DNA of 64,000 bases from Oceanimonas doudoroffii (GTDB lineage Bacteria > Pseudomonadota > Gammaproteobacteria > Enterobacterales > Aeromonadaceae): NCBI RefSeq assembly GCF_002242685.1, contig NZ_NBIM01000001.1:1054001-1118000 (forward strand), written 5' to 3'. Shown piece after piece: positions 9,054-63,342 of the stretch. The notes under the pieces are model-generated. The model worked only from the letters and a program-made list of their open reading frames with translations, made no database searches and was not told the DNA's origin. Made by a program: the position numbers and the translations under genes. The stretch's first letter is position 1; every line of letters begins with the position of its first letter.

Positions 9054-9147
9054 GTTGGCTCCTTGTATGTGTTGTTAATGCCTTGCTCCGCAAGGCCCGC
9101 CTACTGAAGTGACGGCTACTGACAATTTTAATTTCCATGATAAAGCC

Positions 9148-9215
9148 GTCATCTCCGCGGAGGCGGAGATCCATGACATATCGCACTGGACTCCCACCTG
9201 CGCGGGAGTGACAGC
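9148..9215. repeat. Pair of short REP-like hairpins in the serC-hisC gap
   Basis: The first hairpin (9148-9177) is ATCTCCGC-GGAG-GCGGAGAT flanked by GTC and ATGAC. The second (9190-9209) is ACTCCC-ACCTGCGC-GGGAGT followed by GACAG. The CTGGACTCCC...GGGAGTGACAG design matches small dispersed palindromes common in proteobacterial intergenic DNA. They lie 166 bp before the larger repeat that starts at 9381. Confidence 0.6.
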
Positions 9216-9380
9216 AGAGAAATACGAATTTTTCTGCAACCCGAGGCTTCAGGCCGTAGCCAGCCCCTCCAAAACGGCGCTGTATTCTTTTTTAACCTGC
9301 CGACTTAGCTGTTGGGATTCGCTGCGCTCATCACCAACCTACGGCAAACAGGCAATTCTAAAGCTTCACGAAGCAGCAGT

Positions 9381-9604
9381 GGGGATTGCCGTAGCCGACC
9401 GTCAAATGCCATGGCCGAAAAGTTGCTCCTGCATTTTCGGCATTCCCGCCATCCCTGGCGGTCAGACGCATTTGCCGAGCGCTCATGGGGCGAGCTTGCT
9501 CGCCGTGACGAAGCAGTGAATCCCGACCGAACATTAACTATGTTCGCAGCGGGGTTCACTGCTGAGTGTCATTCATGGAAGCGTGTCGGCGGAGTGCAAC
9601 CGCG
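9381..9604 (+). repeat. Dispersed structured repeat, copy A (224 bp)
   Basis: Roughly 85 percent identical by eye to the reverse complement of 63091-63315, and colinear except for a small indel near 9565-9575. Internal hairpins include CCGCCA-TCCC-TGGCGG, GGCGAGC-TT-GCTCGCC, and a compound stem in which CAGTGAATCCCG (9514-9525) pairs with CGGGGTTCACTG (9550-9561) around the inner hairpin CGAACAT-TAACT-ATGTTCG (9528-9546). It lies between hisC and serC, antisense to their transcription. An open frame across it is conserved in copy B but has no ribosome binding site; the base changes follow pairing, so structure is the simpler explanation. Confidence 0.85.
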
Positions 9605-9629
9605 CTGCTGCTTCGCATTGTAGGCTGGT

Positions 9630-62966: not shown

Positions 62967-63090
62967 GTTATTGCTCTCCCGTTCCCTGAAATGAATGTTT
63001 GAATGGTGTGGAGCGCACATTTTCAGTGGGCCTGGGTCTTTACCGCCCTGCCCAGTGAAAAGGTGCGAAATAATGCCTTGGCAAATCACC

Positions 63091-63315
63091 GGCGTGGTTA
63101 CATTCCGCCGGCACGCTTCGGGGAGGCCACTCACCAGTAAAGCCTGCTGCGAACATACTTAATGTTCGGTCAGACTTTACTGATTCGTTACGGCGAGCAA
63201 GCTCGCCCCATGGGCGCTCGGCAAATGTATCTGACCGCCATGGATGGCGGGAATGCCAAAAATGCAGGAACAATTATTCGGTCCTGGCATTTGACGGTCG
63301 GCTACAGCAATCCCC
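63091..63315 (-). repeat. Dispersed structured repeat, copy B (225 bp)
   Basis: Reverse complement of the element at 9381-9604, roughly 85 percent identical by eye. The compound stem is CAGTAAAGCCTG (63135-63146) with CAGACTTTACTG (63171-63182) around CGAACAT-ACTTA-ATGTTCG (63150-63168). Compared with copy A, three base pairs of the outer helix changed on both sides and one changed to a wobble, while all 12 pairs remain. It lies between ectC and ask, in the sense orientation relative to their transcription, whereas copy A is antisense to its operon. Confidence 0.85.
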
Positions 63316-63342
63316 GCCGATGCTTTGCACAGATGACTTGCC

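Follow-up and report, generated by a model that had tools for sequence, protein, structure and literature searches.

The two similar stretches found in the window, i.e., the whole 64-kb stretch of Oceanimonas doudoroffii DNA that was analysed here, are the rarer, long-arm form of a family of dispersed intergenic repeats. That the element is structured and dispersed is near certain. The initial annotation had proposed a mobile, non-coding, hairpin-rich and possibly regulatory element, and this is borne out by the many copies, the strong covariation, the intergenic sites and the presence or absence of copies at orthologous gaps. More specifically, we give an about even chance to the reading that the element belongs to the non-autonomous dispersed repeats of the YPAL kind and forms a mobile RNA structure that would present paired putative CsrA-type sites.

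Copies in the window

The region 9381-9604 (+) and the region 63091-63315 (-) are alike over their full length, as initially noted, with 86% identity by alignment and BLASTN. An element is indeed present at 9381-9604, but its actual span is slightly longer, 247 bp (9369-9615; Table 1). The 12-pair helices 9514-9525/9550-9561 and 63135-63146/63171-63182 pair as had been claimed, with three double changes and one wobble, and the folding of the 135-nt 3' halves of copies A and B was better than that of 200/200 dinucleotide shuffles (z -6.0 and -4.9, respectively). Both copies had been described as lying opposite to transcription; this is correct for copy A, where the F1 sense (see below) is antisense at serC/hisC, but not for copy B, where F1 is in sense at ectC/ask. 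The operons at the two copies (amino-acid and ectoine) appear to be incidental to the element. Among Rfam families, four tRNAs and nothing else were found in the window.

Table 1. Features of the two repeat copies in the window
Feature	Position	Strand	Context or remark	Basis
Copy A, F1 unit with long arms 1 and 2	9369..9615	+	hisC/serC gap, genes on - strand	Module-seed BLASTN, alignment, genome search
Copy A, base-stem 5' side and arm 1 foot	9369..9414	+	97.8% against F1 seed 1-46	
Copy A, long arm 1, inserted at hairpin 1 tip	9415..9469	+	98.2% against arm-1 seed; missing from short copies	
Copy A, ANGGAX-type loop hairpin (CCAGGGATGG)	9446..9461	-	F1 - strand, which is the serC/hisC sense	Sequence
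Copy A, long arm 2 including covarying helix 9514-9525/9550-9561	9484..9577	+	Seed match 9484-9556, remainder up to F1 3' side	
Copy A, base-stem 3' side	9578..9615	+	100% against F1 seed 80-117	
Copy B, F1 unit with long arms 1 and 2	63084..63325	-	ectC/ask gap; F1 sense is transcription sense	
Copy B, base-stem 5' side	63285..63325	-	Private stem variant, also in orthologous copies of other species	
Copy B, long arm 1	63229..63281	-		Module-seed BLASTN
Copy B, ANGGAX-type loop hairpin (CCATGGATGG)	63235..63250	+	F1 - strand; antisense to ectC/ask	
Copy B, long arm 2 including helix 63135-63146/63171-63182	63124..63212	-		Sequence, seed BLASTN, helix check
Copy B, base-stem 3' side	63084..63119	-		Module-seed BLASTN

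Other repeats lie close to the two copies. A GTAG-type REP (9311-9344) shares the gap with copy A, and a pair of short palindromes reminiscent of the CGTC/dRS3 class (TCTCCGCGGAGGCGGAGA and CTCCCACCTGCGCGGGAG) occurs in the same gap at 9146-9212, so this gap houses several kinds of repeat. Upstream of ask, a separate inverted repeat at 63017-63062 (CATTTTCAGTGGGC..GCCCAGTGAAAA) was seen in 13/13 compared genomes, the element-free ones included; it may serve the ectoine-linked aspartokinase as a leader or attenuator.

Structure of the units and changes of their arms

Many copies in O. doudoroffii consist of only the two ends of copy A lying close together, and this short form of ~117 bp, to which 56 of the 75 extracted F1 copies belong, is the basic unit, F1. 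It folds as a three-way junction with a base stem of up to 19 pairs, six inner pairs and hairpins 1 and 2. A second unit type, F2, follows the F1 plan with a different base stem. Gene contexts were studied for 60 units, which were the best-scoring listed short F1 copies of three genomes (24 in G002, 15 in G005 and 21 in G013). F2 adjoined F1 in 29 of these contexts, and in 28 of them it stood upstream of F1 in inverted orientation. The spacer between the two units was mostly 46-57 nt long and itself hairpin-like (64 non-redundant spacers), and no promoter was seen by eye among the 64. Either unit type may be extended by long arm 1, which sits on the tip of hairpin 1, and by long arm 2 within hairpin 2. 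The window copies have both long arms and some other copies have one only. Chimeric units of the O. doudoroffii genome (L003 and L005) appear to have an F2-like outer stem and an F1-like inner part, which suggests recombination between units.

At the ectC/ask gap, the short form is present in Zobellella denitrificans (L091), long arm 1 in Z. taiwanensis (L077), and both arms in O. smirnovii (L090), O. doudoroffii and genome G005. All these units have the private base stem AAAGCA(A/T)CGGCGGGG in common, and the element at this gap would therefore most simply be one old insertion with changed arms. Two relatives carry a unit with the ordinary base stem in reversed orientation, one of them with long arm 2 (G003) and the other without hairpin 1 (G007). 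The ectC/ask gap was element-free in 9/13 genomes, which show another hairpin there. The hisC/serC gap held F1, F2, both of these or a third type of stem (G008) in 10/13 genomes and none of them in 3/13.

Distribution and genomic placement

A search of the whole genome and of related genomes had been advised in the initial annotation; performed with BLASTN and a covariance model, it yielded dozens of further, intergenic copies. In the O. doudoroffii genome, BLASTN gave 58 matching pieces at E<=10 and 32 at E<=1.1e-4. Matches were found in 18 of 31 relatives, all of the same genus (18/19 of its genomes), and in none of the 12 genomes from 12 other genera. The covariance model, with at most 150 candidates scored, matched 23/23 genomes of the genus with 2 to at least 148 matches each, counts in which some units are possibly included on both strands; the E-values of the model are rough. 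A pattern of 22 set letters, searched in 84,980 species, occurred at 51 loci in Oceanimonas, Oceanisphaera, Zobellella and one gammaproteobacterial bin. Of 148 genomes of the order, 21, from 11 genera, gave model matches; leaving Oceanimonas aside, these are 17 genomes from 10 genera, in which the matches were weaker. Five genomes of another genus in the family had no model match. In the matches from other genera that were inspected (34 matches in 10 of the 17 genomes and 9 genera, with g6 and its five genomes left out), the core was kept and the outer stems differed. The Oceanimonas element had no BLASTN match on plasmids or phages and no match in E. coli. In one genome (G118; L311:2500-3800), a tandem array with a period of ~300 bp, near a TPP riboswitch, is built of F1-like units in alternation with F2-like ones.

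Genes around the units were called with a purpose-made codon-usage caller, by which 59 of the 60 contexts were resolved. The units occupied 29 convergent, 25 unidirectional and 5 divergent gaps, compared with 21, 80 and 50, respectively, among the other gaps of at least 40 bp in the same stretches; convergent gaps were thus enriched (p 3.7e-7) and divergent gaps depleted (p 1.9e-4). The 3' end of F1 was directed toward a stop codon in 47/60 contexts, at a median distance of 26 nt, and the nearest mRNA therefore usually carries the - strand of the unit. In convergent gaps, the F1 3' side was the nearer of the two in 29/29 cases, and in unidirectional gaps F1 was antisense in 17/25 (p 0.11). In the other genera, 7 sense and 5 antisense units were counted in unidirectional gaps (28 of the 34 matches assessed). 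At one site, an F1/F2 dimer in G002 (L240:3003-3277) takes the place of a GTAG REP in O. marisflavi (L075:2759-2788), each right after a terminator-like hairpin, which indicates a landing site common to different repeat families.

Selection on structure and strand

In the alignment A2 of 45 short F1 copies, from which 11 of 56 copies had been removed by hand as near-orthologues, 16 of 41 pairs were altered on both sides (shuffles 8.3+-1.6, with 0/500 reaching this value; slid controls 4-8 pairs), and 95.6% of the cells (45 copies by 41 pairs) were paired. The arm-2 helix, compared in 22 non-redundant and widely differing copies, comprised 242 cells, of which 214 were Watson-Crick, 13 G-U, 1 A-C and 14 others. 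Selection on nucleic-acid structure, which had been suggested from the two window copies, is thus upheld by the paired changes both in the short copies and in the arm-2 helix. The alignment of the 34 matches from other genera, which was fitted to the model and includes tandem copies, had 33 of 41 pairs altered on both sides (shuffles 29.9; 11/500 reach 33); paired cells amounted to 94.9% vs 61.2% and the covariation score to 0.768 vs 0.189, both values above those of 500/500 shuffles.

The wobble pairs of the F1 base stem were biased toward the + strand, on which 47 G-U and 9 A-C cells were counted (the binomial test used 47 of 55 base-stem cells). In 55 further copies not identical to A2 (5 of 60 were dropped as identical to A2 or to one another), the numbers were 48 and 6; this second set was found with a model scoring the + strand and may favour wobble, while the first came from letter patterns and BLASTN and is unbiased in this respect. 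Arm 2 had 13 G-U against 1 A-C on the + strand, and F2 had 13 against 9 in the pairs common to both folds, with no clear bias. The RNA fold was better on the + strand in 51/55 F1 and 52/52 F2 units. A single dimeric RNA is doubtful as the selected unit, since either unit type has its best fold in its own + sense, yet F1 and F2 sit on opposite strands.

Hairpin loops

On the + strand of short F1 and F2 units, both loops read CANGGANG (C-A-N-G-G-A-X-G); in short F1 units they lie ~25 nt apart. The loop A was kept in 45/45 and 44/45 F1 copies and twice in 52/52 F2 copies, and each letter of GGA in 44-45 of 45 (F1) and 50-52 of 52 (F2); N and X vary, and the A-X pair is often broken. The high-affinity consensus of CsrA/RsmE is described in PMC4005645 as an ANGGAX hexaloop directly on a stem with a closing C-G, and the loops of the units are close to the CsrA SELEX consensus RUACARGGAUGU (PMC7652899). 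Short units have the ANGGAX hexaloop on a C-G-closed stem; the + strand of the window copies does not. Both window copies are without the two + strand loops, with one A.GGA on the + strand in copy A and none in copy B, and each has one ANGGAX-type loop hairpin on the - strand of F1.

Hairpins were also surveyed in 431 kb, made up of the window and 60 stretches that had been selected around units; the units themselves account for 12 kb. C[ANGGAN]G hairpins with stems of at least 5 bp fell inside units in 89 of 94 cases, 84 of the 89 being on the + strand, and eight control loops in the same survey occurred 0-3 times inside units and 1-9 times outside. In the other genera, CA(N)GGA was present in hairpin 1 of 34/34 matches and CANGGA in hairpin 2 of 32/34 (10 genomes, 9 genera, tandem copies included). 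Each unit has 4.0-4.5 GGA on the + strand and 0.5-0.7 on the - strand, compared with 2.2-2.4 in shuffles. A csrA gene and a CsrB-like RNA occur in 23/23 genomes of the genus, with CsrB above the Rfam cut-off in 22.

Relationship to YPAL repeats

The F1 model R1 matched repeats of genome G145 at 58.7-60.1 bits, and the three matches that were fetched from this genome were all Rfam Ysr224 (RF02770; 70.6-100.4 bits) on the opposite strand. In Table 1b of PMC2759123, RU-2 (the YPAL repeat) shows the Ysr224 core by eye, including the loops CAAGGATG and ACATGGATG. Through this chain from R1 to Ysr224 to RU-2, the YPAL/RU-2 fold, i.e., a long stem bearing neighbouring hairpins, both with CANGGANG loops, was recognised. 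As to the letters of the YPAL core outside the loops, F1 and F2 share stretches such as CGTC, GAGC and GCGT, but in seven loci of Oceanimonas, where no Rfam family came close to its cut-off, the sole Ysr224 match was on F2 of L122 at 23.2 bits (cut-off 70); since these units stay below the cut-off, the YPAL link leans on the model and the loops. The Oceanimonas family is likely YPAL-like, a distant relative of the Yersinia palindromic sequence as judged from these similarities.

Besides the fold, both families share intergenic position, many copies and internal inverted repeats. The outer stem and flanks of the Oceanimonas units are completely different, however, and the Yersinia outer sequence and the YPAL length were not found here: the short F1 has 117 bp, compared with ~168 bp, and an unrelated outer stem. 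F1/F2 dimers with a spacer hairpin and long-arm modules also set the Oceanimonas family apart, although some of these may be already described for YPAL. According to PMC2229807, YPALs are intergenic repeats of ~168 bp with target duplications of 3-26 bp beside dyads, empty and filled sites and recent mobility. No target duplication was seen by eye in five pairs of occupied and empty sites, from genomes at most ~94% alike.

Two further observations concern the Yersinia side. Rfam RF02770 Ysr224, listed as a Yersinia sRNA, is apparently the reverse strand of a YPAL repeat, and its structure is given without the three-way junction. The G145 repeat at L321:2960-3140 has relatives of 77% identity both in five E. 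coli genomes out of 5,426, where four are plasmid-borne, and on 15 plasmid records (Klebsiella, Citrobacter, Escherichia, Shigella), of which 14 are predicted to be conjugative.

Discussion

A CsrA-type function is the best single reading of the loops, about as probable as its rivals taken together. On this reading, the unit would act as RNA, reached by read-through from a neighbouring gene, and once transcribed it would offer two putative sites to a CsrA dimer. The scattered copies could serve as CsrA sites at 3' ends or, alongside CsrB, as a decoy spread over the genome. A transcript would meet one unit in the + sense from whichever side it entered an inverted F1/F2 dimer, and long arms, as in both window copies, would replace the GGA tips and may alter the CsrA output. 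The units resemble the sponge RNAs CsrB, CsrC and RsmZ in having GGA-loop hairpins, and CsrB-like RNAs are present in these genomes. They differ in holding ~4 GGA each, compared with 19 in each CsrB-like RNA of the genus itself, and in being dispersed in many copies; no promoter or terminator of their own, as a CsrB-type RNA would have, was seen by eye. Several points speak against CsrA. The + loops are gone in the window copies, the + strand is not favoured by gene orientation, F2 has no clear wobble bias, and Rfam places the Yersinia relative Ysr224 as an sRNA on the opposite strand. Moreover, most CsrA SELEX ligands have four or fewer contiguous pairs, according to PMC7652899, and the stems of the units are longer. 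A DNA-processing enzyme might also just as well recognise a three-way junction with conserved loops.

Dispersed bacterial palindromes are usually regarded as selfish DNA. It is possible, though we consider it rather unlikely as the whole explanation, that the element is only selfish, like a MITE or a REP: the folded + strand (single-stranded DNA or RNA) would be recognised by a host enzyme, gene effects would be incidental, and stem, loops and wobble bias would be kept as only well-folded copies make progeny. Consistent with a selfish element are the variation from 2 to at least 148 model matches per genome within one genus, the presence or absence at orthologous gaps, with decayed remnants there by eye, the inverted dimers (28/29), as in REP dimers, and the folding bias in each unit's own + sense even where units lie on opposite strands; the empty and filled sites and target duplications reported for YPALs (PMC2229807) point the same way. 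A target duplication was not seen by eye in the cleanest pair, however, and the letter-by-letter match of the loops to the CsrA consensus, with N and X free, would be left unexplained.

A link to a Y1_Tnp transposase was not found either. Of 32 Y1_Tnp matches, 30 loci were examined over up to 1.5 kb; none of them had F1 or F2, and only 12-22-nt arm-seed pieces (E 0.24-0.85) occurred there; five of the 23 genomes have no Y1_Tnp match and yet hold 3-75 model matches each. A RAYT as mover is unsupported by these 30 loci. The one Y1_Tnp (RAYT) match of the O. doudoroffii genome (L147) is flanked by a GTAG-type REP as at 9311-9344.

GTAG REPs and REPINs, which go with RAYTs, are like the present units in being intergenic, at 3' ends, in inverted dimers and in unidirectional and convergent gaps (PMC3733652). 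They differ in that GTAG occurs in some Oceanimonas units only and inside the stem (A2 column 25 varies), and in having one hairpin of 20-40 bp where the Oceanimonas units have a three-way junction. Similarly, hairpin 1 of F1 begins with CGTC and has a stem of 8-9 bp and a short loop, as do CGTC-tagged REPs, a class given as without known transposase in PMC3733652. F2 is without the tag, however, and the Oceanimonas units are two hairpins on a common stem; only hairpin 1 of F1 agrees with the CGTC REP features, which are the tag, a stem of 8-9 bp, a loop of 4-5 nt and a short tail. The pneumococcal BOX, compared by its description (PMC3049150), is likewise modular, and its inner parts are optional and differ between strains at one site, but there tandem boxB units vary, whereas in Oceanimonas two hairpin tips do. 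Identity with integron attC sites is unlikely in view of the dispersed intergenic placement.

It is quite improbable that the units are merely bidirectional structures of mRNA 3' ends without CsrA, i.e., exonuclease barriers, RNase sites or ends of transcription, with copies replacing terminator hairpins. The enrichment in convergent and depletion in divergent gaps, the short distance to stop codons and the ectC/ask gap, where 9/13 genomes have another hairpin in place of the element carried by the other four, would all suit such structures. No T run was seen by eye after the unit, though, and terminator-like hairpins lay between stop codon and unit in 7/47 cases compared with 42/265 in the background; a function as terminator was rejected for this lack of enrichment. 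A barrier would also need no conserved unpaired loop letters. The last alternative, that the copies are recent duplicates of a protein gene or alike by chance, is negligible: short open frames do cross the copies, but dozens of copies exist, they are intergenic in many contexts, and their substitutions track base pairing, so that the outcome named beforehand as fatal to the proposal (no further copies and no significant covariation, or protein-gene duplicates) did not occur.

Base-resolved conservation sets the free parts of the unit (stems, N and X) apart from the fixed ones (A, GGA and the closing C-G), and it is these fixed letters that correspond to the target of a well-studied global regulator. 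A literature search, outside which the original YPAL description lay, found no paper linking CsrA with dispersed repeats, and CANGGANG loops matching the CsrA/RsmE consensus in YPAL-like units appear to be new here. A broader proposal is more tentative and somewhat less probable than the reading itself: YPAL-like repeats of marine and enteric Gammaproteobacteria might form a self-spreading reservoir of paired putative CsrA hairpins, acting as a distributed sponge or as 3'-end tags that couple transcripts to Csr, with dimers giving orientation independence and arm exchange switching sites.

Even without CsrA binding, the family clearly illustrates how arms change as modules at a single insertion and how selection acts on the structure of a mobile repeat. 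If CsrA does bind, the amount of a master regulator that is free would depend on a mobile repeat, and YPAL and related repeats would have to be counted among functional RNA elements.
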